Source of the DNA: Diadema setosum
Lineage: Eukaryota > Echinodermata > Echinoidea > Diadematoida > Diadematidae
Assembly: GCF_964275005.1 (NCBI RefSeq)
Contig: NC_092701.1
Coordinates: 32,817,919-32,881,918 of the forward strand
Length of the DNA stretch: 64,000 bases
Direction of reading: 5' to 3'
Positions within the stretch are counted from its first letter, which is position 1. Every line of letters starts with the position of its first letter. Under the pieces are notes generated by a model. It had not been told where the DNA came from and did not search any database. It saw only the letters and a program-made list of their open reading frames with translations. This document shows positions 1,677-57,915 of the stretch, piece after piece. Position numbers and translations under genes: made by a program.

Positions 1677-4600
1677 GTGAGTTTGTTTTGTAATTTATTG
1701 CTTTGCTTTGCCTTTGGCTTTGGTTTGGCTTTTTGGTTAGATTTGACGTTTAAGATGCTATAATTTAAGTGGGCCTTTGTAGTTTCCACAGACCACTGAT
1801 AAGTCGATAATTTCCAAAGATCACTGATAAGTTGATAGTTGAGAAGGTAGTGTCTACTGCATACAAACTACTAGTTAACCCCGGGGCGCTCCATTTGGCA
1901 TTCCAGTTGTGAACTCTTTGTGGACGCCGTGGTGAGTGTGGCTGTGGAGGCTCGAACGCCTTTGCGTTCCGGCTGCTCGAAGTTACTGTACAATGTACAG
2001 TGTACATTCTGCAGAAGGTTCAATAGGAACATATCAGGCCAAAAGCCCAAGGCCAAGTCAACTGCAAAGCATACCCTACTGGTTGCAGGTGCCTGCTTTT
2101 CAGTAGGGGAGCAGAGACAAAATCGCAGGTTCCTGCGTATTCGCAGAAACCTGCATATATGCAGGCGATTTTAGAGGTTTTTCGCTCTAAAAACCTGCGA
2201 ATTCGCAGGTTGCGTTCCGATTACAGCCTCTTGCGGCCAGGCGTTTCATCAGAGGTTTCCGAAAATGGCACCATCCGAAGCAGCGCCTAACGTTGCCTTA
2301 GATGCGAAATTTATAGAAAATTCTGGTGTTGCGTTTTCTTTTAAATCGCCGATAAGTGAAAAATGTGTAATCGATCGAAAATGACGTCATCGTAATACAA
2401 GCCCAGTCATGTGACCAGAGCACGTGACACACAAAACCTGCGAATTCGCGATCGCAGGTCGACCTCATGGAGGGGAATGTTATTACTGCCAGTGATCAGA
2501 CTGCAATGGGGGTATACATTTCAACTCCCCCAGGAAGGCTAATTGATTGACACCGTTTATCTTGTCTTCTGTGGTCTGGTCATGTAATCTATTTTTATTG
2601 GCTGTCTGAGGATTTAAATACGTGAAAGCTGTTTCTGCTTATAGATCTTGGTGATACAGTTAACTTAAGCGACTATGCGACCTCCAGACCTTGGCATTGA
2701 TTGTGTAGTGTGTACTGTTTAATATGAATCTCAACCTGCAATGTTATGACTGCCGTTTACATGTATTATCACCTCCCTGATTATACCATGGAGCTACCAA
2801 CATAGCTCCATGATTATACTGAGTAGGTCATGTAATCTACTAGTAGATGCGTCAAAGTGACCATCCGCATGCAGGTGTACTATACCATGGAGTAGCTCCA
2901 TGACTGTACACAGATTCTCCATGTAGTTTTAGCAGACCATGGAGGTAAACAAACACTGACTCGCTATGCATCATGGAGCTCCATGCGTGCATGATGAACA
3001 CCATGTAATTCCATACTCTGCAGCTCCATGTCTGTAGTATGCTGATACTTGATGTATATACAATGAGATAAAAATCGATTCAAGAAACCGAGTCGATTAT
3101 TGCTCATTAAATTGCTTGAAACTTTGATGATTTGCGCTCATATTAGCTGTAAAAGCTAATTTTTATTGTAACATTTTCATTTTGCCCTGAGCTTGGGATT
3201 GTTTTATATTTATATTTTTGTATGTAGATGTATTATATCATTCCTATAAATTATTTAACTATGTTTGTGTGAAAGGGACATAGCTTATGTACTAGGCCTA
3301 CTGTTTTGGATCACTTATGTTGTATATCATTTTCATTATGTATTGTTTCATGATATATCTACATTTTGTTTGTGAATATATTTAACATAAAAAAGTTGCC
3401 CAAAAATTGCATGTTACATCAACACCAAACTTGAACTCATGATTCCCAATCTAACTTAGCAACACAAAAATGAACATACACTGACAGTATACAGAGTGAC
3501 ACGGCACAAACACGTATATTATCCATATTCCACACACACACCCACCCATACACAAAACGTCTGTACAAAAATGGAAATAAAGACGATGTAAAACGGCAAG
3601 ATGAGAATAACAGTAGTAAGAACAATAAAAACAGAACATGAAGAAGGAAACGTGGAAGAGGAGGAAGATGACGGTGAAAAGACGGGAAGTTCGAATAATA
3701 ATAGAACACCACTCTTAGAAAAAAAAAAAAAAAAACAACCTAAAAAAAACCTCCCTGAACCGTGGGGGGGGGGGGGGGGGGCGGATGATTGTACATGCCA
3801 TCCCCCACTCTGTCAGTTGGGGGATTGATCCCCCATCCCTCTCCTGTCTATACGCGCCTGATATTACGATAACAATGTCTAGTCAGTCACACAGATTCAA
3901 CACATCATTATAATCTACAGAGAATGCAGGCACATTTAAACAATCGGTAACTAGAAACATATATGCAGCATATTTATCAAATAATACAAAGTCACATTTT
4001 AGAGATACAAACAAGACATTGGGAATGGCCTCCATTTATGCATATCCACCCCTAAAGCCAATATACGCTTATTTAAAAAAAATGGACCTATTTGTCCTTT
4101 GACAAAATTCCTCCGAAAAACCATGCATTTGATTTCTCATATAGATCACATTTGGTTGCGAAGGCATACAAGCCTCTTAATCATGTATGACAGTGATAAA
4201 ACAAGATTTTAATATCCTCGTCCGACCTTCACAGTGGTTATGTGCACAGTAACAATTCAAAACTAGAACCATCACTGAAGGTGTTAGATAATACTCTCGC
4301 CCAATCGTCAAGTCTTGTATTAAAAGCACCGGTCAAAAACTACAAAAGTTCACTTTGCAAGGTTTGTCAGTAACTTATAATTTTTCAGTAACTTATAATT
4401 TGTACACAATATCAGATACGCTAAAAACATTTGGCGTCACAAAACCAGAATTTTCAAACATAGTACAACGTAAGTCAATGCCTTCAAGTATATTTTGAAC
4501 CATTTATAAGAATACTGGTACATATATATGTTATACAAAATAACCATATAACTTATTTATAAAGCACATATCATGAATACGTCTCTATGTGCTTTATTAA

Positions 4601-7600
4601 AAACTAATTGTTTGTGGAGGTATTTAGGAATAAATGAGTTAGATTATTAACAACATATGAACAATTATTATCAAGAGTACCAGAGGCGGCTCTCGGGGGG
4701 GGGGGGGGGGGGGGGGGGGTGACTTTCCGACTTTTTGAAGTACCCAAATAATGTGCCCTTTTCTCTTGGGAAAGTGCCCCTTTTCAGGACAAAAAGTGCC
4801 CCCTTCTCAAAAAAAGAAAGAAAAATAGTTAAAGTGTCCCCTTTTCAAGCCCAAAAGTGCCCCTTTCTACTACAAAAAAAAAAAAAAAAAAAGAATGTGC
4901 TTCTTTTTCTTGGGAAAGTGTCCTTTCTAAAAAAAAAAAAATGTGCCCTTTTCCTTGGGAAAGTGCCCCTTTTCAGGCCAAAAGTGCCCATTTCTTTTTC
5001 GGTAATTAACAAATTTGTGTGCCCTTTTAGGCTGCGCCCCCCCCCCCCCCCCCCCACTTTCAACCTCGCTCCGCCGCCCCTGAAGAGTATACTACAGTAT
5101 ATAGTATGTACATGAAATCATGAAATCACGCTGGCGGTTTTCAAGTTTTACTGCCTTGCCTGTGTAATTTCCGTAGGTTGATGAATACATGAATACATTG
5201 GAATATGGATAGAAGATAATGTTTTATTAACAACAATTAGTAGGCCTGTACTGTACATGTGCGATGTCAATGCTTAACGATACAAAGTAAGTGACTATAA
5301 TGTTTACAATGTTTCTTAAGCCCCTAACTACTACACAAGGCAAGTGCCAAATTGTGTCTCGCCCATTTGCGTACAAGATATTACTATTTTTCTAACTCAA
5401 AGAAGTTCATTTGACCGGGCTATGACACTCCAATAGCGAATCCGTGCCCGCACAGACTGAGAGTGCCAAGGAATATGTTCATTTCATAGAAAATGCCGCC
5501 GTCCCAAAAGCGATGTCGATCGACGACATTAAAATCGCTGGTTCCGCCGATCCCGTGTATCAAGCTGTGATTGAAGCGATCCGGAACGGCGCATGGCCTC
5601 TCAACCACGACAACGAACTCTCCGCATACAACAGGGTGCGAGGCGAGCTCATTCCCCTGACCGATAACGACATCGTTCTCCGTGATCGCCGTCGCATTGT
5701 GCCGCGATCTCTCCGCGATCATGTGATCTCACTTGCACTCGAGGGACATCAAGGCATGGCGAAAACAAAGCAACTTTTTCGCACCAAAGTTTGGTTTCCA
5801 CAGATCGACAGCCTTGTCGAAAAGAAAATTCGAGAATGCCTGGCATGTCAGGCAAACGTCGATCGAGGAAAACATCCGTGCGCTGCTGAAAATGACTACT
5901 CTCCCGGCACGCCCCTGGGAGCAAATCGCGATCGACTTCCATGGCCAACTGCCGTCTGGCCATTGCCTACTTGTAATTGTCGACGAATATTCGCGATTCC
6001 CCGTCGTCGAAATCCTCAAATCTACCTCCGCTAAAGCGACTTCGCGATCTTCGGCATACCCGCGACCGTTGAGTCCGATGACGGCCCGCCATTCCAGAGC
6101 GCTGAATTCCTCGACTTTGCGAAACGATTGAGCTCCCGCCATCATCGCATGACACCCTACTAGTCAGAAGCGAATGGCACCGCTGAAAGGTTCATGCGAA
6201 ATCTCAACAAAGTTCTACGAACCGCGAAATCGGAAGAAGCTAATGTAACACTCTATTGTTTTTTTGGATTGATTGTGGTAAGCGTGGACTTTGTAGGCGA
6301 GTGTCACTGGAGTATAAGTATCAGGATCACGACGGTGATAATAATGCAAAGTCACCACTCGTAACACTTGTATAACTGAGTGTTACTAGAAACGTATAAC
6401 AGTTCAGTAGAATGTGCGATGACAGTCTCAGCTGGATGACACAATGATAATGATGACGAAGAGACGCGAAGGAAAGTACAGTTCAGCCAGAATGTATACT
6501 TTATTTGTAGTAATACAGGAACTTGGTGAAAGTACAATCTCAATATATGAACACTTGGCACTCCCTGGTATGCTCCCAATCGGGGCTAGAGTGTATCGCT
6601 GATATCCCTCTGCCGGGTGGCAAGAGGCCTGGCCGAACCAGTGTAAGTTTGGCTGAACAAGAACTAAGAGTATGGATGTACAGGGACATTTATACTAAAA
6701 CCTGTGAATACATTATTATTGACACTTTGCATAAAATAAAAGGGGAGAGTATTGTTTACTAATACATATGCAGGATATCTCTTAGAAGGCAATCCAAATT
6801 TGGGAAGGGGAAAGTCCTAATACCATATTTGGTCATGAGAGTTTATGAATGAACTCACTATTCTGTAATAGTGGTCATCAGCACAAAGGAATGTGCTGGT
6901 CAAGTGTTTTAGGGAGAAGTCTAAACAAAGGGGCTCATAATCGGTGGGTGGCATGGGTCAGTGGGGACTGACCACTTTCCAAATAAACCAGTGCGTCCTG
7001 CGTCATAATGCACTGCAAGGACATCTACAGTGGGAAGTGAGGAGTGGGGAAGAAGGACATAATTTTGGATCTTACATTCGTCCGGCATTTCAAAAAGAAA
7101 CGTCCTCGTTTCATATAGGAAATAAAACAAACATTATTTTTAGATATTGCAAGGGAATGTACAAATTGTAATATCAAAAGCGTATACTCGAACTTAGATG
7201 TGATTAACTTAACAAAAGTAATCGAAATTGGCAAACTGAGTGAAAGTGTTGATTAAAACGATTGACTGACTGATACTGGAAACATAATTAAACATAGAAG
7301 CATAAAAGAAGTACAAATCATAACAGTGTAATCGACTGATTACAGTAAACAAAATGGCATAAAAGACAAGGATTAAACATAAAATATCAATGTAATTCAA
7401 GTACACCTAAAGTTATCGTAACAACTGTCGGCTGTGTAACATTATGATCATACAATAAGGACTTAACCTGTTGTATGAAAAACTTTGAAAGTGGTGATGT
7501 CAGCTTTCACCTAGTCAGGAAATGCTACTTACGACAAAATTAACCATCACATAAAGTCAGCAGGCATAGAGAGACCTAACATACAGGCAAAATCAATTTC

Positions 7601-10600
7601 TATTAAGATAAACATATCATATAACTAGGCATCAGCATTAGAATTACATCATTATTATTGTAGTACCGTTGTACAGTCATCATCCACGTGTGATTATCTT
7701 AGTAAAGGGGAATACCATAAAAATCAGGTCTCTTAATTAACCTACCACTACGAGTGTGGGTGTGAGGGTCATGGTTCCGGGCATGGGCATCATGGGAAGG
7801 TGGAAGAGGAGGAGGAGGAGAAAGAGATGGAGCTTCAGCAGTTGGTTGAGAAGACGAGTAGGTAGGAAATGGAAACACAGGTATGTGAAAAACAACTTGT
7901 TCCTCAGATGTAGGTGGAGAGGGTGGGTTGGGAGTGAAAGGGGGCGTGGGTTGTGATGTGGGCTCAAGATAGGGTTTGAGGCGGTTGTAGTGGAGAACTT
8001 TAGGGGGAGAGCTGGGATTAGACAAATCTGATAGGTGATATAGAATGCCATTGTCATCTTTTCGCATTATGCGATAGGGGCCTTTCCATTTCGCAGAGAG
8101 CTTCTCACGAGTTGGAACAGTTACAAGCACTTTATCTCCTACTTCGTATGGGATGAAACGTGTGGTTCTGTCATAATGCGCTTTTTGTGAGTGTCGCGCC
8201 CGTTCGGTCTTTGCGTCGGCATGCTCAAATGCTGAGTGCAAACGGTGGAGGAGGGTTGTTGCGTAATCATCTGGTGTGTGTGATGTTGCAACGGGGTCAG
8301 ATGAGGTCAAGACTGAGAGAGGGGTGGAAGCTTCACGTCCGTGGACAAGAAAGAAGGGGGTGAAACCAGTAGTGGAATTAGGTGTAGTGTTGTACGCAAA
8401 TTGATGCTGGCTGAGGACAAGATCCCAGTCGGTAAGGGCGGAGGAAAGGCGTTTACCAAGTTCAAGTTTGAGGGTGCGGTTATGTCTTTCGACTAAACCA
8501 TCTGACTGAGGGTGGTAGGGGGTGGTGCGTGTTTTGGAAATGCCAAGTTTTGTACACAACCTAGTCATGAGATTCGACTCAAATTGTCGACCTTGGTCGG
8601 AATGAATGGAGTCAGGAATGCCATGTTGACAAATGAAATTGTCGAATAGGCAGTCTGCTACAGAAGTCGCTGTCTGATTTGGCATAGGGTAGAGGTTGAC
8701 ATATTTTGTGAAATAGTCAACTACGACAAGTACGTATCGATTTGCACGAGGGGTGAGGGGTAACTCAGTTATGTCAACACCAATGCGCTGAAAGGGACGG
8801 GAGGAGGGGATGGGTTTGAGGGGGGCTCTGTGAGCAGGGACAGGGTTGCGCCTTACCTGACATGGGAGGCAGCGGTTGCAAAAATCTGCAATGTCGCTAC
8901 GCATTCCAGGCCAGTAACACATCTGATCAGCCTTCTGTAAGACTTTATCAGCACTGAAATGACCAGATAGTGGTCCACCATGGAGGATAGAGAGCACCAA
9001 TGGGGTGAGTGAATGTGGAATGACAACTTGTCTGTTCATAGCGCCTGAAGGGAGGCGTCGAATGCGACATAGCAGTCCGTCATGAATTTCTAAGCGTTCA
9101 AGTTCACTATGAAATTTACGCAGGGGAATTTCATACCTAGGGATGGCAGATCGAGGGGGAATGGAACCAGATCGAATCCATGACATTACTTTGCTCAAAG
9201 TGGGGTCAGATTGTTGTGCTTGATGGAGACGATGACCATCAGCCAACAATGATGCACACAGTGTATCAAGATTACCAGGAGGTGTTGCTGTTTGTGAGGG
9301 CAAGCTGGGGGTGGGGTCAGTTGTGACAGCAGGATTGTCAGTTTGGGTAGGAGGAGGGGAGACAGGTGAGGAATGGTGACATGAACATGATGATGATGAA
9401 ATAGGTGGAGGTGATGAGAGGGGAGGTAGTGAATGAGATGGAGGGATGGAGACGACAGATATGATAGGAGGTTCAGGTGGTTCAGGTGGAGGTGGTACAC
9501 GAGACAATGCGTCTGCATTGGCATGACGAGCACCATCACGATGTTCGATGACCCAATCGAACGTCTCTAGCTCGAGGGCCCATCGGCTACGTCGTGAAGT
9601 TGCCGTGCCAGAGTCGTGACCAACAGGCAGCCGCCTGAGGCCGACAAGAGGCTTGTGATCTGTGATGATGGTAAATGGGGAAGTCAGCAGATAGTGGCGG
9701 AAATGACGTACAGACCAGACTATTGCCCACAATTCACGATCATAGGTAGACCAACGTCGCTCAGTGTGCGACAGCGCACGACTAGCATACGCTATTACAT
9801 GTTCCTTGCCATTGAGGCGTTGCGTCAATACTGCACCTACAGCAAAGTTTGATGCGTCAGTATGCAGTGTGAATGGCTCAGAAAAGACAGGGAATGACAT
9901 GATAGGGGGTGAAGTGAGTGTGTCTCGCAATGTGCGAAATGCTTTTCCGCACTCATCTGACCACTCAAACAAGGCACCTTTCATTGTAAGTGCATATAGC
10001 GATCGAGCTACATGCGCAAAATTCTTCACAAATCGGCGGTAATACGAACACAAACCCAGGAAAGCTCGAAGTTCAGTGACATTGCGAGGGGTGGGCCATG
10101 AACGTACCTTGTCAATGTTGGTAGGGTCAGGGAGGACCTTCTGAAAGAAAGTACACTTGTCAGGACGTAGTTTGAGACCAGCTGACCGAAGACGATCAAA
10201 CACTGCACGCAATCGACCAAGTTTCTCATCAAATGTGCGGCCAAATATGATTATGTCATCAAGATAGACCAGCACAGAATCCCAGTGCAAACCACGCAAA
10301 ACTAATTGCATGAGTCGTTGGAAGGTAGATGGGGCGTTTCGAAGTCCCATGGGCATCACAGTGAATTGATACAAATCAGTACCTGTAGTGAAAGCAGTTT
10401 TTGGTTTGTCATCTGGATCCATAGCAACTTGCCAATACCCACTGGACAAATCTATCGTACTGAAATAGACATTTCCAGCAAGTGCATCAAGCGTGTCATC
10501 AATTCTGGGGAGAGGATGGGAATCAGGACATGTAACTCTATTCAACTTGCGATAGTCAACACAGAACCGATATGAACCAGACTTTTTCTTCACCATAACA

Positions 10601-13600
10601 ACAGGTGAGCTCCAAGGGCTAGAACTAGGTTCAATAACTCCAGCCTCAAGCAGGCGATCACATTGCTGCTTGATTTCTTGGCGAATGTTGGGAGAAGTCC
10701 GGTATGCACGTTGTCGAATGGGAGGAGCGGTGTCAGTAGGGATGACATGTTGAACAAGATCAGTGCGACCATAATCATCAGCAGACTGGCTGAAAACATC
10801 TGCATATTCATTGAGCAGAGCAGTAACCTGAGCACATTCATCAGAAGTCAATGATGTTGAAGAGAGATCAAATGAGGGAGAGGTGTGAGAGTTAGTAGAG
10901 GGGATAGGTTGAGTGACATTCGAGGCACAATATTGTTCTCCAGAGCGGCCGAGGAGGGGGTGAAATTCACCTAGCGGCATCCCAGGGTACAACGTGATCG
11001 ACGATGATGTCGGATTTGCTACACGAACTGGGATTGCACCATCAACTACTGAGGAGAGAGTACATGCAACAACAACAGGCAACTCATTAGTAGGTTCAAG
11101 CACACCATCAATGTCTGATGAGGAATTGACAAAAGTCTCGCCAAGGGAGATGGGGAGGACTGTTTCACTCCAAGGAGGGATAACAACCTCGACATCGACG
11201 ACTGCAGACACAACTAGTGGAACAGTAAGGGCAGGTTCTACGAGACGGAGGGAAATAGATGACAGTGAAATAGAGCCTTGATTCAAGTCTAAGCAAGCCT
11301 GATGAGCACATAGGAAATCCCATCCCAAGATGACTTGAGGATGAATTCCACGTGCAACCTGAAAATGGTGTGAAAATTGAGCCGAATGAGAAGAAAAGTC
11401 AACCAAAATAGAGCCTAATGTATCTAAGACATCACCTGAAACAGCTTTGATAGGGGTAGGCAATGATAGATATGGTCGGGAAGAGAGTGAGGGGAGAGAG
11501 AAGCGAAGTTGCTCACCAATGAGTGACACCGTAGCACCAGTATCGATCAGAGCATGTATTGCAGTTGAACCAATGGATATCAATAGACGGGATGAAATGG
11601 AGGGAGGAGGGGAAGGGCGGGGTTGGGTCTCAGTGGAGGATGCTGACAGGTGACCCGTGCTCTCAGCTTGTTTTAGTTTCCCTGGTTCTGAAATGATACG
11701 CGGGCAGGAGAATTGCGGCGCATTGCACTAGGCATTGATCGGGAGGAAGGGCTTTGAGATCGATGACGATACTGGACATCGTCTCGACGTCTATCTTCTG
11801 AGTCACGCGACTGTACATCGTCACGACGTCTATCGTCATGACGTCTATCATCTGAGTAACGCGAGCTATAACTGTAGCGGGGAGAATCGCGCGGCGACGC
11901 AGGGTAATCACGCGAATAGGGATCGGCAGTGTAATTGTTGCTATGACGACGAGTGGGGTATGGGCTTGGGCTTCGCCCGCGGGAGGGCGGCATAGGGGAA
12001 TAATGTCGTCGATCAGGAGTCGGTGATCGAGGTCGGGGGTATGACTGGCGATGATATGTATCACCATAGAACCTATCATGACGGTCATGGGCAGAAGGGG
12101 AGCGGTAACGATCACGAGAATGAGACCGGGTGTAATCAGGACGATAACGAGGACGGGAACGAGATGCGTCGCTCTGAGCATTCTGAAACGAGTCATATTG
12201 TGATTGTAGGGCATGGACTGACAATTGAAGAGAGTCGATTCGTTGTAAAATTTTGTCAAGGGGATCGCCAGGAGCAGTTGCAGTAGCAGCAACATGGTTG
12301 TGGTTGGGTTGTGAAGAGAAAGGAGAGGAAAATTTTAGTGATTCTGATGCACGCTCAATGCGTTGAGCTATGCTCAGCGCTTCGTCGGTGTTGCGGGCTC
12401 CATGCTCGTGGCATTTCGCCTGCATGTCCGGGCTGAGGCCAGCCACAAATCTCCGAAATATTTCGTCCTCACGGGCGGCAGTATCTAATTTGGGGAAGGC
12501 TAGAGTTGTCAGGCGGTTTAATTCCGACAAAAAAACTTCCAGGGGTTCATTTGGTTGTCTGGGGCGAGCATTTAGCATTCTACGGAAAGAGGTAATTTCA
12601 TCTTGTCTTGAAAAAATTCTCTCAAGTTGCTCTTTGGCCTTCTTGAAGTCTTGTTTGGTTGCTGCAGGGAAAGCATCCCAAACTGCAAATGCAGCGCCCT
12701 GTAGACGGGACCCTAACATTTTTGCCATATCAATATTATCTGAATTGGGACAGGCATCAATTGCCACTTCCAAGCGTCGACACCACTGGCGAAAATCAGT
12801 GGTGCCATCACCCGAAAAGGATGGGGGGAACGAGATTGGGACAAAAGCACCAGGAAGGGAGGGGGAGGTAGAACCAATGTCAGAGTCAGGCATTGTGAAA
12901 GTAACCAAATAACGTAAGTGACAAAAAGGCTACGAGAAATAAAACTATGAAAACGGATCAGGGGACTGGAGGAGGATGAGAGGCACTATAACTTTGCAAT
13001 GTAATGCAAAGCTATAAAATCACATGTAATACGCTTAGTAAAGTGTCTGCCGACAACACAAAGAAGAAAACAATTGCTATAAAGGGAGGGGTAGTATAGT
13101 GTATAGCAAAGAAAACAAACTATATGATATACTACTATAAGCTATCACAATACCTATATCATATATGTATAAATCATGGAATGCAGTGATAATGACAGCT
13201 AACATAAAAACTTAAAATAGAGCATAAGGTCGTATACACACAAAGAAATGCAATATAATTCATACAATAGAAATAATATAGAAAGAGGGAAAATAAAGTT
13301 CGAAAGTAGACTTAACAATCTGGAGAGAAGTGACAGATGAACAGGCGAGGTTAGCCGGGAAGACTGTGTTGAGGAGCCCACGAAGGCAGCTTCCTTGCAG
13401 GCGCAGCTTCAGGTAGCACAAGTCCGGAGACAGGATGAGGAGGATGACCACAGTAGAGGGAAGATGATGGGTTGACAGAAGATCGTCAGGTACAGAAGGT
13501 TGTCAGGTAGAAGCCGAAGGTAGACAGGAAGAAGATGAACAGGATCCCAGAAAGTCGATGAGAAGAGATGACCGGGGGGAGTTGAACAGGAAACACAGAC

Positions 13601-14709
13601 AGAGTACACTTGAACACTGACTAACCTGCGTTAGTCCACAACAGCATAGCGTTCAAAAAATTATCGTACAATTGTACGATATGCAGGAAACATACACATG
13701 TACCAGGCTCATATAAGTTGACATCCGGATGAACAGCAGCGGGACGAGTAGTCAATCACGCCAACGGGTTGCAGGTCACCGTTTTGCTGCTGCCACCAAG
13801 AGTAACGTCGAGCGGGTAGATGGCTCCGCTTTACACCGCTGCCACCACTGTAACACTCTATTGTTTTTTTGGATTGATTGTGGTAAGCGTGGACTTTGTA
13901 GGCGAGTGTCACTGGAGTATAAGTATCAGGATCACGACGGTGATAATAATGCAAAGTCACCACTCGTAACACTTGTATAACTGAGTGTTACTAGAAACGT
14001 ATAACAGTTCAGTAGAATGTGCGATGACAGTCTCAGCTGGATGACACAATGATAATGATGACGAAGAGACGCGAAGGAAAGTACAGTTCAGCCAGAATGT
14101 ATACTTTATTTGTAGTAATACAGGAACTTGGTGAAAGTACAATCTCAATATATGAACACTTGGCACTCCCTGGTATGCTCCCAATCGGGGCTAGAGTGTA
14201 TCGCTGATATCCCTCTGCCGGGTGGCAAGAGGCCTGGCCGAACCAGTGTAAGTTTGGCTGAACAAGAACTAAGAGTATGGATGTACAGGGACATTTATAC
14301 TAAAACCTGTGAATACATTATTATTGACACTTTGCATAAAATAAAAGGGGAGAGTATTGTTTACTAATACATATGCAGGATATCTCTTAGAAGGCAATCC
14401 AAATTTGGGAAGGGGAAAGTCCTAATACCATATTTGGTCATGAGAGTTTATGAATGAACTCACTATTCTGTAATAGTGGTCATCAGCACAAAGGAATGTG
14501 CTGGTCAAGTGTTTTAGGGAGAAGTCTAAACAAAGGGGCTCATAATCGGTGGGTGGCATGGGTCAGTGGGGACTGACCACTTTCCAAATAAACCAGTGCG
14601 TCCTGCGTCATAATGCACTGCAAGGACATCTACAGTGGGAAGTGAGGAGTGGGGAAGAAGGACATAATTTTGGATCTTACACTAAGCTAAGCCTCTTCGT
14701 CATGAACTA

Positions 14710-14747
<38 letters not shown>

Positions 14748-17700
14748 ATTGGGATAAGTCACTATTTTACAATGTACAGCGTAACCATAAATGACTTATA
14801 GTTTTACATATTGTGTCAACAGAAAGTACATAATGTAGTACACTGTATACCCTCTCAAATAAATTGTGGGCTTCTATTTGGATCAAGTTTCACATGTGAT
14901 CACTGGAGGATCATTTGAACGCAAATTTGTTTGGATATTTCCATAGTACGATAAACATTTTTCAAACTTTGCTTTTTTACAGCATTTGTTGCATTACATT
15001 GTAGAAACAGATCAAAGAGTCTGTATTTTAATCTTTCTCCATATACAATAACATATCAGCATGCAATCATCCGTTTTGCATTACGAGTATCAAAAGTAAA
15101 GCTAAGCCATCTTTAGAGGGGCTATATTCTAAGTTAACTAATATGAAACATAAAAAAGATTATACCCTCAACTCTTCAAAGATACATATGTGCATGAGTG
15201 CATCCGATATCACGCATAATCAAGTAAATTTCCAATGAAAATGTCAGATACAAATTCAGTTTGTGCAAGTTCTTGTAAAAGGATGCAAGACTGAGTGAAC
15301 GCTGTTACTTTTGTTTGTTTGATTTATTTTTCTTCCAACACAATTTCATACATAAATCAAGATTCTTTTCAGTAATATCACATGGATATCAGAAAGCAGA
15401 TTACAATGTACATGATGCAAAGAAGGAAAATCGATGTGTAAATTAATTTCATTAACAAAATATAACTCGTATTACCAAATAATTATCTGAGAAATTATGC
15501 GGAAGAAGGACTGCCACTATAAGCAAAAGCTTGAGCACGTGGCAGCCCAGGGATCTATCTACATAATACACAAAAAATTATATTGTTTGCGGAATGGAGA
15601 AATACTACAAAATATAAGACACTGTAAATACATTATGTTGTTATATTCCTAGTGCATAGATACGATTAAGAGTAAATTGATGATGTATGATGATGATGAC
15701 AGGGTAATGATGAGGAAAAATGTGATAACGAAGATGAAAGTGATGGTGGTGATGCTGAAGATAATGGGAATGAAATGAAATGATAGACACAGAAACATTG
15801 CGTATACTTATTGTAGTTTTAAATCCAATTTACAGGAAAACAAATGTGATCAAGCAAAACAAAATATATATTCAAATGCTATATTCATAGATTGTAATCT
15901 GACAGTAATGTAGTTTTCAATCTAGCCTTGAAAGAATATAAAGTTTTACATGATTTAACATAATCTGGGAGTGTGTTCCAAAGATTTGGTCCATTATGTC
16001 TTATAGATTTTTGTGCAATTAATAATTTGGGATTTACTAAATGAAAATTTTGCTAATTACGAGTGGGATATGAATGAACGGTATAATTCAGTTTAAAGAA
16101 ATCGTGAAAAATGTTTGGAAGTAAGTTGTTCGAATACTTAAACATAAAAAGCAAAGAATGAAAGGTATTTATATCAAATATATTCAGTGTTTTTAACTGA
16201 TAAAAAGTGAACTGGTGTGGGCTAAGTATTGTGATCCAGTACAGATGCGAATGGCTTTCTTTTGTATTTAATAAATAAACAGAGTTGAGTTTAGTTTTTG
16301 AACTTGTAGCCCACACTAGATTACAATACATAATATATGGTAGGATTAAGGAATTGTAAAGCATAAAAAGAGTATGTTCAGGAAGATAACTTTTCATCTT
16401 TGAAAGAACACCTATATTTCTAGAAATACAGGTTGTAACATAACGTATATGATCATTCCAGGTTAGGTTTTCATCAATAAAATGCCTAAAAACTTAGTAG
16501 AACTTTTACGTTCAAGAAATACATTATCAATCCTGATATTATTTACGAAATCATCTGTGTGAGTTTTCATATGCTTAAAATAAATATAATTTGTTTTATC
16601 AATATTAAGTGATAATTTATTATTCTTAAACCAATTTGATACATTTGGTAACTCTGCATTAAGTGTGGATACTAACGTTTCTATATTATCGTGGGAATAA
16701 AAAATATTCGTGTCATCGGCATATAGTATAAATGATAATATAGACGACGAATTAACAATATCATTGCTATATAACAAAAAGAGAAGGGGACCTAATATTG
16801 ACCCCTGGGGCACACCACATTTTATCGGTAAAAAATTTGACGACATGTCATTATGTACAACATATTGCTGTCTACATGATAAATAATCCCTAAACCACGA
16901 GAGTGCAACACCGCGAACACCATAAAACTGTAACTTTTTAAGTAAAATATCATGTTGTAACGTATCAAACGCCTTAGATAAATCCATAAAAACTCCTATA
17001 ACATGTTTTCTATTTGCCATTGCGTTTGTAATTTGATCATACAACTGGATCAAAGCCAAATCTGTAGAATAATTCTTTCGGAAACCATATTGATGTAAAT
17101 TCAAAACTGCTAACGGGTACTGTTACTGTGTCACATGCTGTCAAACATCATCGAACACACTTGATGTATCCTCAGGAAATAGACCCCCTAGGTCCTGAAT
17201 AATAATAAAAAAATATATATATTATGTATTCCTTATTTCAGTTAGATACACCTTAATCACAATTTCAGGACTTCCCTGATTCCGCCAATTAGAAAAACAT
17301 CACAGTTTCATGTAAGAACAGAGAAAGCCTCCTTCAATGACTTTCTCTTTGATTTCCAAGAGAAACTATGACTCACTCAAAATATTTCCCAACACCCCGA
17401 AAGAGAGGAAGCAGTGTTCAAGACACACGACACCAGATCCAATTTTCATGCCATGCAGAACAGTCATCTTGAACATCTCCTTCTATGTATTCATTTCCAG
17501 GTAAGAAATTACAATTTCTACCCCATTTCTCATTTATCTTTTGTTGTAACTATTAACCAATGATGTTATCATATATCTATGTTGAGGTGAATGAGTACCG
17601 GTATTCGGCAAATGGATATACACTGTATTGCCAATTTATTGATATTTGATTGAGTGTGTTTAATTCTATATACCAGCATCTCTGGAATGTTCATTATTAC

Positions 17701-20700
17701 TAATGTACACTCCTTCTGTTAAATAATAATTGTTTTACTGTTGTTAGTGTTCATTATCAATATCATACTGATATAAAATTATGTTAGTGATAATTGTGGT
17801 GTTGATAGTTTGATAATTAGATATTATGTGAAATTAATTAATACAATGTAAGTGGAATGAGATTCAATATGCGAGTGGGAACACAGCCTAGATTGCTTGC
17901 TATTTGTAACTAGATGTATTACAAGGCCGAGTTCACATTGTAGTTCACATCCTGGGAGAAGTGAGAGAAATAACTTTAACACCGTTATGATGAGTAATGG
18001 CCCGTCGGCCATGAAGTGAGTTGTGTTCTGAAAGCACTCCTGGCTGAGCAACAAGGGACCGCCTCAGAATGCTTTACTGTGTAGAGTGGAGAAGTGTCCA
18101 GTTAGCGCATTTACCATAGTTTCACTTTTGCCTGAAAGAAGGGACCTTCTCATATGATCTGGCAGCCGGTCCAGAGAATGGAATGTGTGTGGTTGCTGTG
18201 GCCTAGGATGTTATCAAGACTACGGAGAAGAAAGTGAGTGAGAGAGAGAACCTTCAGTGTTTTAACATACATGTAGTGCAGGTTTAGGCATTATGAAGCT
18301 TGTATACGTCCAGTTCTCTCTTACCCTCTCTCTCCTTTTCTCTTTCTCTTCTTTGTATCCCTCGCCCTCCTTTTCTCTTCCTCTTCTCCCACTCCATCGA
18401 TATCTCCCTCTTTCGCACTCTCTCTTTTCCTCTCCCCCTTTCTCTCCTTTTCTCTCTATATACATCTCCCTTAGCACTCTTCCCATAACGACCGCTGTGA
18501 CTACGTACGTGTATTTGTTTAGGATAGTATTGTGTATCATACCACTCATCTAAAGTTTAGTATATTATTTGGAGTGCATAGATACAGCTTACATGTAGGC
18601 ACGGATGATAAAATCAGGACATTATGTTTTCCTCTGATCATGTAAAGGTCGATGTAAACTGTTTTGATGCATCAGTTATCAAAGTAAAGTGTTATTTCAT
18701 TATTATCATCATCATCAATGAGTTATATAAGATAAGCAGTGAATATGAAGGAGAGTTATGGTGTATGTTATCAGTTATATTGCAAAGGATCATTAGATTA
18801 ACGATAAGTAATTTTGATAATTTATGATTCAAGGTACAAAGCCAAATCGGAATATAGGCATACAGTTTGCCCCGATCACAACTTAGTGTTAATATTACAA
18901 TGAGTTGTTACATAACGAATTTAGCTTGAGTGACAACTAATTATGCCGTTCCCACGAGTTTGTATAATGACTATCAAGGTATTAGTGTTATAGATGCAAT
19001 TGGACATTAAAAGTTCAAGCTATGACGACATTCAGTTAGTTTAGGAATATATGTGTTTCAAATCTTGAATTAGAACTATCCTGTTGCATATTAATGGATA
19101 TTATATATTATGTCATTTCTTCAGTTGATTTTAATAAACCAGATCCAATTTTGATGCCATGCAGACCAGTCGTCTTGACCATCTCCTTCTATTCATTTCC
19201 AGATCTGGCAATTCAAGCCCATCCACGGCCGGGCGGGCGTAACACAATCCTAATGAGAAGTGCGAGCAGTGAAGTACTTTCATTGGCATAGAACGTGCAA
19301 AAATGGGAGTTTGAGCCTGTGTCACCTTCATCAGTGATGCAAGTTTGAAATTCGAGGGGGGGGGGGGCATGGTCCCCCCCCCCCTAATCGCCGCCAATGG
19401 ACATCAATATTTACATTAACATTTTTCACAATTTTATGGAAGGGGCCTATACATTACCCAGTCTATAGCTAACACTTGTCGGCCTGTAGAGACACACAAA
19501 CTGCAATATGGAAAACTCTTGTAGTGGTAGTAAATCCACACACATACATGTAGCAGAAACAATACTAAATGCGAACCGTTATGTTTAAAAATGCTGACGT
19601 AACACTGGCACTACATCAAAACAGCAAATTTGGTAATATTTGCTTGATTTGGTAACAAACTGACATAAACTGATATAACTGATCTTTGTTGTGGTGACTT
19701 TTGCGCCCTCTCAGTACACAAAATCATTTTGACAAATTCATACTGTAAATGTTTGAAAAACATGAATTTGTGAAATTTGACGTAACAATGACATCGTGTC
19801 AATGTGACGTCAAACGAAGCATGTTACATATCATGTGTCCGACAAGACACATGCGCATGTCAAAAAAAAAAAATAAATTAAAAAAAATGAAATTTCTTGC
19901 ACACCCAAAGGTGCTTCGTACATGAAATAAGTGATACTTTCATGGTTCTCGCCAGGAATTTCTTCACGCTTGTCGGCACTAATTCGCGCTGTTCTGGGGG
20001 TGGGCGGAAGCCTTCGCTAATGCTCAAATACAACATAGATAAATCGCCGCTAAATTGCCACTAAATGCGACATTTTCACGGAGATGTAATGAACGTTGTG
20101 AAGGGCATATTCTCACAGAAACAATGCAGAAACTCCATACCTTTTGTTGGCGGCAGTTCCTAAATAATAAATGAAAGAGAAGTAGGTGCCGATGGTGAAG
20201 GTTCCGATTTCTTTCAGGCCTTTCCCGATTCACTGTCTCTGCATCGCAACAACGCGCGCCGTGTATATCCGTAGGCCCGAATTCTCAAAGCTGGAATAAC
20301 TATTCCACGGAATAGTTATTCCGGGGAATAAGTTATTCCACCTTTGACAATAGATTCCGGGGATTAATCGCGTCATTTTACGTCACAAGGGCCTGATTTG
20401 CATAAGAGGCATAATAAATCGGCGGAATAAGGGTGTAATAAAGTTATTCCACCTTTGAGAATTCGGGCCGTAGTGTTTTTGCTTTCTCGCTCGCCGTCTG
20501 CTCGACCACGTGGTAGGCCTATTGCATGCAGATGCGCGAGAAGCGATCGAGAACTTTCGGGACATCGTTGCACTTTCCTTTCTGGGTATACTCCGGTAGT
20601 TTGGCCGTGACATCAAAGAGATACCATACAAAAATGTAATGATGGTCATTATTACGAAGGTTTGTTTAATCATAAAATGAAACGATTCATTACTGAGTAC

Positions 20701-23700
20701 TTCGAAGGTTTGTAATCGAAAACGACAACAACACCAAAGGTCGGTACTACAGATGAATGTTCAAAATAAACAAAACTGATTTCGTTCGGAGTTTAACAAA
20801 TATTTTTTTCTTAATTATTTTCCGATCAACGAACCTTCAGAAAGGAATCTATCATCTATCATCGTTACTGTTTCGGAATAACAAACCTTCAGAGTAAAGA
20901 AAACTAACCGTTTTGGGGCCGTTGTTGTATTCCGAAATTATACTGGCAGAACGTTCGAAATAACAAAACTGATTTCGTTTGGATATAAACGAATATTATT
21001 TTCTCCTTTATCATTTTTCGATGAACGATCATTCAGAATTAAGAATGTAGAGTATTATTTTACCATTATTCTTTCGGAGTAACGAACCCTCATAGAACGA
21101 AAATTGTAACCGTTTTGGGGCCGTCGTTTTATTCCGTAATTATACTGGCAGAACGTTCGAAATAACAAAACTGATTTCGTTTGGAAATAACGAAAATTTC
21201 TTCTTTATCGTTTTCCGATTAACGGTCGTTCAGAATTAAGAATCTAAAGTATTTTATAATCATTATTCTTTTGGAGGAACGAACCTTCAGAGTAAAAGAA
21301 AACTGTAACCGTTTTGGGGCCGTCGTTTTATTCCGAAATTTCACTGGCAGAACGTTCGAAATAACAAAACTGATTTCGTTATGAAATGAACGGACATTTT
21401 TTCTAATCATTTTTGGATGAACGAACCTTCAGAATAAAGAATCTAGCATCATTTTATCATTAATCTGTCGGAGTAACGAACCCTCAGAGTGAGAAAACTG
21501 CAACTGTTTTTGGGCATGATTTTCTTAATCATTTTTGGATTAACGAACCTTCAGAATAAAGAATCTACAATGTATTATTTTATCATTGCTATTTCTGTCG
21601 GAGTAACAGACCCTTAGAGTACGAAAACACGCTGTTTTGTGCCGTCGTTTAATTCCGAAATTTCACTGGCAGAACGTTCGAAATAACAAAACCGATTTCG
21701 TTGTGAAATGAACGGACATTTTTTCTCAATCATTTTTGGATTATCGAACCTTCAGAATAAAGAATCTATAGTATTATTTTATCATCAATCTGTCGGAGTA
21801 ACGAACCCTCAGAGTAAAAATACTGCAACTGTTTTTGGGCAGTCGTTTTATTCCGAAATTTCACTGGCAAAACGCTCGAAATGACGCACTGATTTCGTTT
21901 TGAAATTTACGGACATTTTTCTTTATTTAATTTTCGGTTAACGAACCTTCAGAATAAAAAATCTACAATGTATTATTTCATCATTACTATTTCTGTCGGA
22001 TTAACAGACCCTTAGAGTATGAAAACACGCTGTTTTGTGCCGTCATTTTATTCCGAAATTTCACTGACAGAACGTTCGAAATGACAACTGATTTCGTTTT
22101 GAAATTTAAGGACATGTTTTTTTTTTTCTTTATTATCTTTCGGTTAACGAACCTTCAGAATATAGAATCTAGTACTATTTCATTACTATTTTTTTTTTCC
22201 TGTCGGAGTTACGAACCCTCAGAGTAAGAAAACTGTTACTGTTTCATTCCGAAATTTCACTGGCAGAACGTTCGAAACAACAAAACTGATTTTATTTGGA
22301 AATTAACGGACATTGTTTCTTTATTATTGTCCGATTAACGAACCTTCAGAATAATAAGGAATGTAGTATTATTCTATTGCTATTTCGGAACAAACCCTCA
22401 GGGTAAACCCGTTTGGGGCATCGCTTTATTTAGAAATTTCACTGGCAGCGAACTGAACACAGGCTAACCAAACTGCTTTTGTGAATGTGAAAAACATTGT
22501 TAATTTTCACTAAATCAAGAACTGATCTGGAAAGAGAAAAATTCACGTGTTTACGAAAATCAAAACTGCGTCACAATATATGATATGTATATATGCCTAT
22601 GTAGGCCGTCATTGCTAAAGAGAAGAACATTTCGCTCTCTCCCGTAAAAGAAAAAAAAAAGAAAATGCTCGGCAGTTAAGCGCATGAAAAGTCAAAATAA
22701 TATTTTTTACATTACTTGCACAACCAAACATTCTTTATTTTAAATTAAAAAAATTATTATATATAGATAAAGAATGTATGGTTCTTCACGTCAAAGCGTG
22801 CATGGGCCTCTGCGTGCGATATCCATTATTAATTTTACGCGGGAAAAGCGTAGCTCCTTGAAGCAAGAGCATGATAAAAAAAAGAATAAACACAGACACA
22901 CACTGATGCTGGTGTAGAGAAAAACAAAGACAGCTTGCTCAAAAGATGCTTCCTTTTTTCATTTTATTTTCTCCCCAGTCATTCCTATTGTTCTACTCCC
23001 ATGAACCCCTGCCATGCACGGACGATGAACAAAACAAAATATTACCGACGCTGCAATAAAAAAAAAAAAAGAAACACGTGTTCGAAGCAAATTATCTACA
23101 CTTTTCAAGTTGAACAAATTGATGTTCGTAATGAAGAATGAAAAAAAAACACACACACACACACACGACCACAGGCAGTGGGGAAACTTGATATCATGGT
23201 ACTGCCACCTTGCTTCAGTGGTCGTAAATATAGCGTGTAAATAGCATGTAAACCAGCTGGGAACATTGATGAATGATTTATCCATTTATTTTCTGCCCAT
23301 GAAGGCCCCCTAACCCACCTGTTCAAGCCAGAAGCACGTGGAGCATTACGTGCGTTGAACTTGAAAGACCATTATGACAGAATTACTATAAATGTCGACC
23401 CGGAGAAGGAAAATGCATGGAATATTCACGAATGACGTTTACAAATCCATGGAAAGTGAAAAGGCTCAAATGGAACGCATGGCTTTTTAAATAAATAATA
23501 ATTAAAAAAAATAACCCGCTGAAACTACCAAAAAAAAAAAATAACAATTTGCATTTGCTTACTCCATCGCACGTTCTTTTTTCTTCTTTTTTTTTTTTTG
23601 ACGAAAGATGGAGTTAATTTTCTCTCTGCGGCAATGCTTTGAACGCATCTAATTTTGCGTCATTGCCGATGGCCAGCTTCCTAAAGAATTGATACGAATC

Positions 23701-23923
23701 CTTTCAAATATACAAAACAAAGTCTAAAAATCTTGGATCCTGGCGGTGAATTCCGGTGGTATCATAAATCCTGCTCACTATCAAAATTTAATCATATTCT
23801 GTTCCTTGCGCCATTTTACCTACCAACTGTTCCTGAAAATTTCATCCTAATCTGTTCCCAAATGTTCACATACTTTGCGAATAGAGAGACAGACAGGCAG
23901 ATAAACGAACAAACAAACCAAAG

Positions 23924-23963
<40 letters not shown>

Positions 23964-26900
23964 GGCGGAGGGGGGCATGCATTAGAGATCGTTTGTTTTT
24001 GCGTAACCCGACAACAAGCGTGACAACAAGCGAGCATGTGTCAGCCTTCCTCTAGCCTCCCTCGGCCTCCGACCATCTTTCCGTCCTCTCTCTCCCTCTC
24101 ACAATACCGTCGTACACACAGGCGGCTGTCTGTGGCCGGCTGGGTGCATGCACCAGGCAGGCGCAGGGAGGTGATGACCATGTGTGTGATCCCGAATCAG
24201 AGCGCAAGTGAGTGAGCAAGTGAGTGATGTGGTGTGTATGGATTGTGCAGCTAGTACATGTACGTCGCTATGTTGAGCCGCGTTGTTGTGATCGGTGCGT
24301 AACTTTTTGCGCTTGTAAACTGCTGCTCCTTTCAACATCTAGCTTCTTTTCTAGCCAGATTACAAAGAGTAAAAAAGGCGAGAAATTGGTCCGAACTTAG
24401 CTCGTCAAGCAAGTTCACACGTGCATGGTGTTACCCTTGTCGGCAAGTTCACGCGTGGTGTTACCCTTGTCGGCAAGTTTTACCCTTGTCGGCAATTGTT
24501 TCTTCAAACCGCACGCTTGTCGGCGCCGACAAGGGTGATGTACTATGTACGCTGGCGAGATCCCTGACTTTTGATGATACAGTGTCATTTCACACTTTTG
24601 ACTCCTCGATCGTGTGTCCCAACCTGACGAAATGACCCATACTATGTACGGAGTCTAGTTCTCAACGATACAATCTAGGCATTAAGCAGAAACAGCTTTC
24701 ACAGACAGCCAATAAAAATAGATTACATGACCAGACCACAGAAGACAAGATAAACGGTGTCAATCACTAGTAGCCTTCCTGGGGGAGTTGAAATGTATAC
24801 CCCCATTGCAGTCTGATCGCTGGCGGTAATAACATTCCCCTCCATGAGGTCGACCTGCGAATTCGCAGGTTTTGTGTGTCACGTGCTCTGGTCACATGAC
24901 TAGGCTTGTCTTACGATGACGTTATTTTCGATCGATTACACATTTTTCACTTATCGGCGATTTAAAAGAAAACGCAACACCAGAATTTTCTATAAATTTC
25001 GCATCTAAGGCAACGTTAGGCGCTGCTTCGGATGGTGCCATTTTCGGAAACCTCTGATGAAACGCCTGGCCGCAAGAGGCTGTAATCGGAACGCAACCTG
25101 CGAATTCGCAGGTTTTTAGAGCGAAAAACCTCTAAAATCGCCTGCATATATGCAGGTTTCTGCGAATACGCAGGAACCTGCGATTTTGTCTCTGCTCCCC
25201 TACTGGCTTTTAGTTAGGTTAGTGTGTGTGCGTGTGAATTTTGGAATCTCGTAACTCTGTGTGATGATGAAATGTGTGGTTACAGAATAGGACCAGTATG
25301 ATTCTGTGTTGATGTGTCCACATGACTGACCTTTTCCTGTTTTACGAAAGATTTCCCTTACAATATTGCCTTTAGAATTTTTACGTTGCTATTTAACTTT
25401 AGTCATTCTTTTGCTTCATTAGCTCACCTGAGCCAAAGGCTCAAGTGAGCTATTGCGATCGCCCTTCGTCCGGCGTCCGGCGTGCGTCGTGCGTCGTGCG
25501 TCGTCCGTCGTGCGTCGTCCGTCGTGCGTCGTCCGTCGTGCGTAAACTTTTACATTTTTATCTTCTTCTTGAAAACCCCAAGACCGATTTTCATCAAACT
25601 TGGCAGGTAGCATCCCTAGGGGGTTAGGAACTCAATTTGTTAAAATGGGCACCATGCCCCACCCAGGGGGCCCCCAGGGGGGCCCAAACCCCCCAAAATT
25701 AAGGAATCTGTAAAAATCTTCTTCTCTAGAACCAGAAGTGATAGAGCTAAGTTAATACTATGAGTTAGTACATTGATGACTGTAGTTTCAAGTTTGTTCA
25801 TGGCAGAATCAGGGGTGCCCCCCTTGGGACCCAGGGGAGGGGGGTGGGGAGGGGTCCTAATGGGGCCTAAATTATACATTTTCATCTTCTTCTTGAGAAC
25901 CCCATGACCAATTTTCACCAAACTTGGCAGGTAGTATCCCTAGGGGGTTAGGATCTCAATTTGTTAAAATGGGCACCATGCCCCACCCAGGGGCCCCAGC
26001 GGGGCCAAACCCCCCAAAATGAAGGAATCTTTAAAAATCTTCTCTAGAATCAGAAGTTATAGAGCTAAGATAATACTATGAGTGAGTACATTAATGACTG
26101 TAGTTTCAAGTTTGTTCATGGCAAATCCAGGGGTGCCCCTCTTGGGGGCAGGGGGGGGGGGGGGTTGGGAAGGTCCAAATGGGGGCCTGAATTGTACATT
26201 TTCATCTTCTTCCTGAAAACCTCATGATGGATTTTCGTCAAACTTGGCAGGTAGCATCCCTAGGGGGTCAGGATCTCAATTTATCAAAATGGGCACCATG
26301 CCCCACCCAGAGGCCCCCAGGGGGCCCCCAATCCCCCCAAATGAAGGAATCTTTAAAAATTTCGGCCCTTATTGTACATTTTCATCTTCTACTTGAGAAG
26401 CCTGGTCAAATTTTAGTAGAGCTGTGAATAATTTAGATTAGTAACTGCGTGAAAGGTGAACTTGCGATACTCAGGTGAGCGCTAGACCCGCGGGTCTCTT
26501 GTTTAAATTTTGTTTTTATTGATTTACAGTAGTACAGTACGTGAGATTGTATAGTAAGGGTACTAGATCTCGCGCAGGGACCTAATGATCGCGCATAGCG
26601 TAACTGCGTATAGCAAGCGATATTACGCGTAGGAATAAGCGCAAAATTTGCCGATACGCCCATAGAATAAACATACCTGACTTACCGCCCAACATGAGAA
26701 GGAAGCACGTAAGAAATTTTGATTTCCAACAAATTTTCCACTAAATTTCCAATTTTTTACCTTGTAATTTACCTACCTAACCTTAAAATCTGTTCTAAGG
26801 ATGTTGTAGCCTACACAACGTAGACGTGTCGTCTCGCTTGTCTCGTTCGTAGTCGATAGAATTCGTAATTTGTTCGATCGATCGTTTACCATGTGACGTC

Positions 26901-56600: not shown

Positions 56601-57744
56601 GGCACAACAGAATAAGTCTCCAAGAGCTGCAGTACAATATGACTTTTAGGGGTCATCCCACAAGACAGACACCCATGATTGATACAGCCCATGAGTTCAA
56701 CACTAGGCAAATAAGACCCATGAGTTCGACACTACAACTCGGGGCTTAATGTATCAGTCTCATGGGCCTTGTTTGTTTAGTGTTGAACTCATGGGCTGTA
56801 TGTCTCCTAGGCTGTATGATTCATAAATGTGGGACTCTATGATGTGCATCCAAGTTTTATGCCACAGTAATGCATCTATAAATTATGTTTCCCATATTGA
56901 ATGTCGAATCTCTCTCTTTGTAAAACAGGTCAGATCTGGATAGACACACTGAAATGATGTTTGGTTGATTTCTTTATTATGCTGAGTGATGTAAAGAATT
57001 ACTTCCACTTCCTGGAATCTGTTTTGCTGGTGGTATGTCGGAGATGTACTGCTCAAATTATCATCCAGCACTTCAGATGTTCAGGTATATGCTACTTGTA
57101 CTCGAGGAGGCTATTGTCGATCTGTAACTTTGCACTCTTCACAATTTACACCAGTCGATGAGACAGAGTATGTCTTGGCTGTGTGTGTTCAAGAACTTTT
57201 GCTCTGTTGTTTTTTCTTTCTGAAGCTGTTTTAGTATCACGTATGAGGCAGAATCATTCCACTTGTGGAAATAGCGTTTGAGGGGATTAGATACAGCAAT
57301 ATTATTATTGTGCTTCAGAATATAAATTGATGATGATTTGAAGAGATAATGAAGCTGCATATAGGAATAACGTACAGTGAACTTCAAAAATAAAAGAAGT
57401 ACTTTGATGACAAGATTGTGTGCATGTTTGGTTATTTCTCATTTTTATACCAAACAATGTATGAAACATGATTTGTGAATTGTTAAATGTGCAACATATC
57501 AGTTATTCCTATAATTGTAGTAATGGTCAAGTGCATTCTTTGATGGGGAATCCACATATCAGAGAATTATGAAGTAACTGAATTATGAAGTAACTGACAA
57601 CCTTCATATGTCTGTGTGTGTGTGTCTGTGACACTACATGAGGGTTACATTTTATGCACATGTTTCCCTTGTGATCTAGCACAGAGTGTTTAAGACTATG
57701 TGCTGTCTAAGGATAGTGTTGCCTCTTGTAAATTATTCCTCAGT
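53630..57744. other. Non-coding, T-rich sequence downstream of EDEM3
   Basis: No gene recognised on either strand. It may be far 3' UTR or intergenic DNA. An AATAAA with a G/T-rich sequence after it is at 55818-55823, and another lies near 57389. Poly-T/poly-G run at about 55741-55771. Confidence 0.45.
56682..56801. repeat. Inverted repeat with ~43-bp arms
   Basis: 56682-56724 (ATACAGCCCATGAGTTCAAC...) and 56759-56801 are reverse complements with a few mismatches, around a ~34-base loop. No target duplication identified. Confidence 0.75.
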
Positions 57745-57915
57745 TGAGGGAGAAAGATTTGCAGTGACACCATGTGTATGTAGTCCTTAACTGGATCGTT
57801 GTTTGGCAGAATGTCGCTTCCCTCTTCAATTCTCCTCTTTCTAGGCTCTTCTGCCAAACAACGATCCGGTTAAGGACTACATACACATGGTGTCACTGCA
57901 AATCTTTCTCCCTCA
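57745..57915. repeat. Near-perfect hairpin with 66-bp arms
   Basis: 57745-57810 and 57850-57915 are reverse complements with a single mismatch (CTGGATC against CCGGATC), around a 39-base pyrimidine-rich loop. ATTCCTCAGTTG occurs just left of the left arm and again near 57950. An RNA through here would form a long stem. It could be a very young foldback insertion or a precursor-like hairpin. Confidence 0.85.

Follow-up and report, generated by a model that had tools for sequence, protein, structure and literature searches.

Very probable giant non-autonomous DNA transposons with long, invariant terminal inverted repeats in Diadema setosum

The subject of this analysis is a 23-kb unit within a 64,000-nucleotide stretch of the genome of the echinoid Diadema setosum (contig NC_092701.1; the whole stretch is referred to as the window, and positions are numbered within it), together with the family to which the unit belongs. 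The family very probably consists of giant non-autonomous DNA transposons, which measure 10.5-24.3 kb as found and ∼10-15 kb once the clearest later insertions are subtracted. A preliminary description of the window had proposed that the unit was a transposon bounded by long inverted ends and a short target duplication. The termini, CAGTAGGGGAGC, do lie at 2101 and 25205 with GCTTTT at both borders, as claimed there, and the inverted ends with their identical outer part were measured as terminal inverted repeats (TIRs) of 541 and 523 bp, which share 97% identity over a 510-column BLAST alignment and show no difference across the outer 282 bp. The window copy is referred to as C17 and other copies by similar names (Table 1).

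A search of the host assembly (912.7 Mb, 102 contigs) with the TIR gave thirteen matches, 12 of which form six inverted pairs spaced 10.5-24.3 kb apart, the remaining one being a 97-bp match to a fragment designated C12; no unpaired full-length TIR end was found in this search. The search for further pairs of inverted ends 5-30 kb apart, as advised in the preliminary description, was thus productive, and the same result shows that the paired ends exceed chance. Piecewise comparison revealed a single core common to all six copies, with C17 opposite in orientation to the others, and with a 2.8-kb core query long matches appeared in the six copies only (40 of 126 candidates scored). Substitution divergence between copies across the core is 0.43-2.00%, as calculated with alignments shorter than 300 bp left out and with the proviso that satellite units may misalign, and C17 is the most diverged of the six. 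The 1-kb flanks differ among copies, dispersed repeats excepted, which argues against spread by segmental duplication. A description of the family was not found among the matches listed from the open-licence literature, including papers containing CAGTAGGGG, a scope that leaves Repbase and Dfam outside.

Direct repeats flush with the inverted ends are present in five of the six copies, i.e. in all those with both ends intact: GCTTTT (6 bp) in C17, and 5 bp each in C11 (TCAGT), C3b (CTAGA), C19 (TACAA) and C3a (TCAGG). The 6-bp target duplication reported initially therefore stands for the window copy but not for the family, since the other four copies that retain both ends have 5 bp. C19 was inserted within a dispersed repeat, and when its flanks were joined with one TACAA all 40 scored matches (315 candidates) spanned both sides with 92-97% identity. 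Alignment of the six top-listed empty repeats showed an uninterrupted junction with one 5-bp target in each (TACAA in five, TGCAA in one). These paralogous empty sites break exactly at the inferred termini, which is the outcome that the preliminary description had sought from an empty-site comparison, and for C19 they settle that the terminal base is C and that the duplication is 5 bp long. The best reading is that the family has been recently mobile, with exact insertion established for C19 and the duplications supporting insertion of four more copies.

Alignment of all 12 TIRs revealed a 14-bp stretch, at 2607-2620 in the window, that is present in the left end of C17 and on the right in each of the five other copies, and missing from the right end of C17 and the five other left ends. 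The ends of C17 are reversed in this respect because C17 is inverted, and the indel accordingly tells left from right in 12 of 12 ends, indicating that the two ends have been together since before the copies separated. The inner part of the TIR holds end-specific variants, and a further variant, at 2385, which is common to both ends in four copies, suggests occasional exchange between ends. The six pairs, the C19 empty sites and the end identity retained throughout indicate that the unit moved whole and is a member of a giant non-autonomous family, as had been proposed. The alternative, raised at the outset, that the ∼540-bp ends are separate elements paired by coincidence is so improbable that it can be set aside: every full-length match belongs to an inverted pair enclosing the shared core, the end-specific indel is found in all 12 ends, and the C19 empty site spans the whole pair.

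The outer part of the TIR is more uniform than the core would predict. Over a tree fitted to the core distances (total length 3.46%, assuming independent neutral change), 19.4 changes are expected in the two outer 281-bp domains, compared with 3 observed (P ∼5e-6). All three changes are in the truncated right end of C16, one of them beside its deletion, and without C16 the outer domains show zero changes (P ∼1e-8); the alignments used for core divergence captured two of the three. This invariance indicates young insertions and an outer domain that is either needed for mobility or homogenised. Exact matches to the 14-base terminus CAGTAGGGGAGCAG number 16 in the genome, against 4 for the reversed control; 11 of the 16 are family ends, and the other five have no relation to the family beyond the motif. 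The 14-base terminus was also observed in three copies of an unrelated repeat, with TGGTCAAATCGGAAT just upstream, at C1:48973182, C2:20270717 and C18:3864116.

Within this domain, the outer 125 nt (2101-2225) are predicted to fold strongly as single-stranded DNA (z -5.67; 0 of 200 shuffles as good), compared with z -0.29 for the adjacent 125 nt (67 of 200 shuffles as good). After correction for G+C content the outer 125 nt take ninth place among 2556 overlapping 125-nt windows, outranked by simple inverted repeats, and which bases are predicted to pair varies with the stretch folded. The 16-base palindrome CCTGCGAATTCGCAGG occurs 24 times in the genome, with 23 occurrences in the six copies and one beside the C12 fragment, and its reversed control not at all. 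In the C12 fragment, BLAST aligned TIR positions 10-92 and 89-117, separated by 1.6 kb of other DNA and with CAGTAG just before; homology ends at TIR position 117, which is the edge of the palindrome cluster, and the stretch is also strongly folding (z -5.41). No second end was found in the DNA that follows (the rest of L020 plus 30 kb), where the open reading frames (ORFs) listed resemble, by eye, reverse transcriptase and other DNA. The fragment is read as an old piece of a TIR end.

The palindrome cluster is most likely a putative transposase-binding array. It could also be supposed that the TIRs originated as hairpin telomeres in a densovirus-like parvovirus and were later turned into transposon ends, given that the terminal 125 nt are predicted to form a stem and two arms, that the C12 homology stops at the edge of the cluster, and that the inverted terminal repeats of the densovirus JcDV, at 547 nt in the text excerpted from PMC5978394, are close to 541. 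Viral genes were not found, however, the main predicted stem does not include the first 23 nt, the predicted pairing shifts with the stretch folded, and other windows fold more strongly; moreover, paired binding sites could yield the same fold. Flip/flop inversion is a defining trait of parvovirus-type telomeres, and here, despite the presence of a palindrome cluster, no flip/flop variant was seen among the 12 ends, all of which have one orientation. JcDV integrants, furthermore, are described as scrambled in the same excerpt of PMC5978394, as against the clean duplications of the family, and a densoviral ancestry must be considered very unlikely. No exact counterpart of the 24-base end is present in IMG/VR, and an 18-base palindrome matched one phage-like contig, which was judged to be due to chance. 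The broader notion that the ends are hairpin-type replication telomeres, whether densovirus-like or novel in type, coupled to an integration system with a 5-bp stagger is a long shot as well. Were it true, the ∼280-bp domain would act as a replication origin whose sequence stays invariant because the terminal palindromes are copied through, and the tolerance of 10-24 kb of cargo and the identical ends across diverged copies would be accounted for.

The coding content of the family was examined by a Pfam scan of 30 ORFs from the six copies, none shorter than ∼50 amino acids. No transposase was found in these ORFs, the only domains above cut-off being reverse transcriptase, RNase H and Gypsy-type integrase. 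The earlier statement that no mobility gene is visible is therefore sustained as regards a gene of the element's own, but not as regards retroelement genes, since a Gypsy element, an integrase relic and a reverse-transcriptase relic lie inside C17. The accompanying view, that the unit carries other transposons and satellite DNA, is valid for the whole family with respect to the satellite, and for C17 only with respect to the Gypsy element and the integrase relic. The identity of the Gypsy long terminal repeats (LTRs) indicates that the Gypsy element itself is young, and nothing more. The integrase relic at 5426-6243, which has no match in PDB and only IS481 (E 0.061) in NCBIfam, may be the element's own integrase, but it lies within the segment missing from the five other copies, and it resembles a Gypsy fragment. 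In C17 the RVT_1 match of the long interspersed nuclear element (LINE)-type relic crosses position 16595, whereas in C16 (which supplied the only other ORF of this kind in the scan) it ends at that junction, so a deletion of ∼4 kb is probably common to the other five copies. From the sequences, C17 is probably the more complete form, the order of events being inferred.

The longest ORF kept in the six copies encodes 124-125 amino acids, with the C16 version one codon shorter. Relative to C3b, and with C16 left out, synonymous plus non-synonymous changes number 1+2 in C11, 2+4 in C19, 0+4 in C3a and 1+8 in C17; the changes are mostly non-synonymous and protein constraint was not seen, and a coding reading of the core was rejected on this ground. 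A core ORF at 23685-24020 (+) weakly matches DAG_kinase_N (E 3.8e-4, below the Pfam cut-off); it may be a fragment captured from the host or low-complexity noise. As an observation apart, C3a contains a nested 12-kb element (C3:34907379-34919457) with 3.7-kb inverted repeats of 99.5% identity, the ends of which resemble TGGACAACTCGACC and have TCCATAC a few bases away on both sides; all of its listed ORFs of at least 95 amino acids are within its repeats.

Table 1. Features of the window copy, and copies and fragment of the family in the host assembly. Positions are those of the window unless another sequence is named.
Feature	Position	Strand	Size	Remarks
Left target-site duplication GCTTTT	2095..2100	.	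6 bp	Direct repeat, flush with terminus
Left TIR, starts CAGTAGGGGAGC	2101..2641	+	541 bp	Six inverted pairs genome-wide
Terminal palindrome cluster with CCTGCATATATGCAGG and CCTGCGAATTCGCAGG	2101..2217	+		Predicted single-strand fold: stem, two arms
Invariant outer TIR domain	2101..2382 (mirror copy 24924-25205)	+		Identical in 11 of 12 family ends
Segment unique to window copy	4140..16594	.		C16 and C19 join across; C11, C3a and C3b collinear with C19
Integrase relic, frameshifted, cut by Gypsy	5426..6243	+		Integrase_H2C2 above cut-off, rve below
Nested Gypsy LTR retrotransposon	6244..14681	-		Flanking CTAA
Gypsy LTRs	6244-7076 and 13849-14681		833 bp	100% identical
Gypsy pol ORF	7699-11727	-		
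ORF upstream of Gypsy pol, putative gag	11673-12929	-		By position only
LINE-type reverse-transcriptase relic	15888..17122	-		RVT_1 on 16466-17122; remainder by position, no Pfam match
Dispersed genomic repeat in core	19940..20265	.	∼325 bp	At least 33 places outside family
Tandem (satellite) array	20755..22447	.		∼198-bp unit; in all six copies
Right TIR	24683..25205	-	523 bp	Without 6-bp and 14-bp stretches of left TIR; 2 additional bases
Right target-site duplication GCTTTT	25206..25211	.	6 bp	Direct repeat, flush with terminus
C17 (window copy)			23.1 kb	TIR pair
C11			12.8 kb	TIR pair
C3b	C3 near 0.27 Mb		12.3 kb	TIR pair
C3a	C3 near 34.9 Mb		24.3 kb	TIR pair
C16			11.0 kb	TIR pair; 20 nt of right end lost
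C19			10.5 kb	TIR pair
C12 TIR-end fragment	L020:5000-6751			BLAST

Mobilisation of the family presumably occurs in trans. A DDE-type transposase or integrase supplied from elsewhere would recognise the ∼280-bp end domain of the TIR with its palindrome cluster and insert the CAG...CTG ends into the target through cuts staggered by 5 bp, so that the whole unit would be moved regardless of its cargo. C17 appears to have kept the ∼4 kb lost by the ancestor of the other five copies, and would later have received the Gypsy element. Several points weigh against this interpretation. The enzyme partner was not found in the assembly: searches by TIR, 14-base terminus and 16-base palindrome yielded only the family, C12 and unrelated sites, and the transposase between the same termini that the preliminary description suggested looking for did not emerge. 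A decayed or intron-rich transposase could, in addition, have escaped the ORF scan. C16, having lost part of its right end, is without a direct repeat, and duplication length is uneven, the 6 bp of C17 as opposed to 5 bp in the other four copies possibly resulting from slippage in the T run. The empty-site test succeeded for one copy, C19, and the query for C17 returned its own flanks only; the topology of the tree used to assess the outer domains was fixed by hand.

As a rule, non-autonomous DNA transposons fall well short of their autonomous relatives in length. In this family, however, units of 10-24 kb that contain satellite and retroelement DNA and have no recognisable mobility gene of their own were moved whole, with exact boundaries established for one. 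If the proposed interpretation is right, then the long-distance transport of arbitrary DNA in a eukaryote does not require an element that encodes its own machinery. The invariant 280-bp ends and the family-specific palindrome provide a handle for finding the enzyme, potentially an attractive tool for moving long cargo.

Elsewhere in the window, a 567-bp inverted-repeat element with arms of 81% identity lies at 42005-42571; it resembles a miniature inverted-repeat transposable element and has TTAA near both edges. Long hairpins at 57745-57915 and 56682-56801 are the two strongest folds in the window scan. ORFs at 45253-48034 resemble exons of a host gene, presumably EDEM3-like, and a search with one of these ORFs returned one relative at 39% identity.

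Comparison with known systems leaves the ends unclassified by superfamily. With JcDV, the outer part of whose terminal repeats forms hairpins, the family has in common repeats of ∼540 nt, but it differs in having clean duplications and no viral genes found, and in being larger than the 6-kb JcDV genome. Dada elements, for which an extract of PMC3706591 gives 6-7-bp duplications, no TIRs and insertion in small-RNA genes, are alike in duplication length; the family has 541-bp TIRs, and the window yields neither a tRNA nor an Rfam match that reaches the gathering score. The IS3EU/GingerRoot, Ginger1 and Ginger2 groups share 4-6-bp duplications with the family, and C17 holds an H2C2 integrase relic. 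However, the ends of IS3EU/GingerRoot are TA..TA or TG..CA (PMC10045372, in part) and those of Ginger1 and Ginger2 TGTNR (PMC2836005, in part), in contrast to CAG..CTG here, and the segment with the relic is missing from five of the six copies.

It is conceivable, albeit doubtful, that a transposase of hAT type (hAT5, hAT6) moves the family, with the long TIR serving as subterminal binding sequence. The ends of hAT elements resemble CAG...CTG, but typical hAT TIRs are short, and near-identical TIRs of 541 bp would be unusual, as would the giant size. No hAT domain was found in the 30 ORFs, a result that does not extend to a partner encoded elsewhere in the genome, for which no search was made. 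Duplications of 5 or 6 bp fit the definition of hAT5 and hAT6 in passages of PMC12730594; this criterion is not specific, and the two are separate groups, yet both lengths occur in one family here.

The family might, again tentatively, be a gene-less satellite of a Polinton/Maverick-type element, moved by a retroviral-like integrase that was once encoded in cis and is now supplied in trans. The preliminary description had noted a likeness to this group in the 6-bp duplication and the long repeats, tempered by different termini and the lack of a visible core gene; the two differences agree with the present results, and the 6-bp duplication fails for the four other copies in which both ends are intact. 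None of the core genes (PolB, integrase, protease, ATPase, capsid) was found in the 30 ORFs, in which the only integrase domains are those of the Gypsy element and the H2C2 relic, and the H2C2 zinc domain in that relic (5426-6243) is missing from Polinton integrases as portrayed in portions of PMC10045372 and PMC2836005. The 6-bp rule holds for one copy in five, and the ends, CAGTAGG, depart from the (AG)3 or (AGT)2 motif, which is that of vertebrate Mavericks (PMC8097293, in part; genes, 6-bp rule and motif compared as given in sections of PMC8097293 and PMC6431247), the empty sites placing the first C inside the element. After that first C, however, the terminus AGTAGG is one base off the (AGT)2 of Mavericks (same section of PMC8097293), and retroviral-type integrases cut 4-6 bp apart, with Polintons duplicating 6 bp (PMC10045372, same portion). 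Family size and TIR length, too, fall within or close to the values of intact vertebrate Mavericks, for which a section of PMC8097293 lists 12.7-24.6 kb and TIRs of 46-1,447 bp (mean 402). The family is thus unlike Polintons/Mavericks in its genes, first base and mostly 5-bp duplications, and like them in its 10-25-kb size, TIRs of hundreds of bp, 5-6-bp duplication and AGTAG-like sequence near the end, and Polinton-type and hAT5/hAT6-type enzymes are each possible, if uncertain, candidates for its mobilisation.

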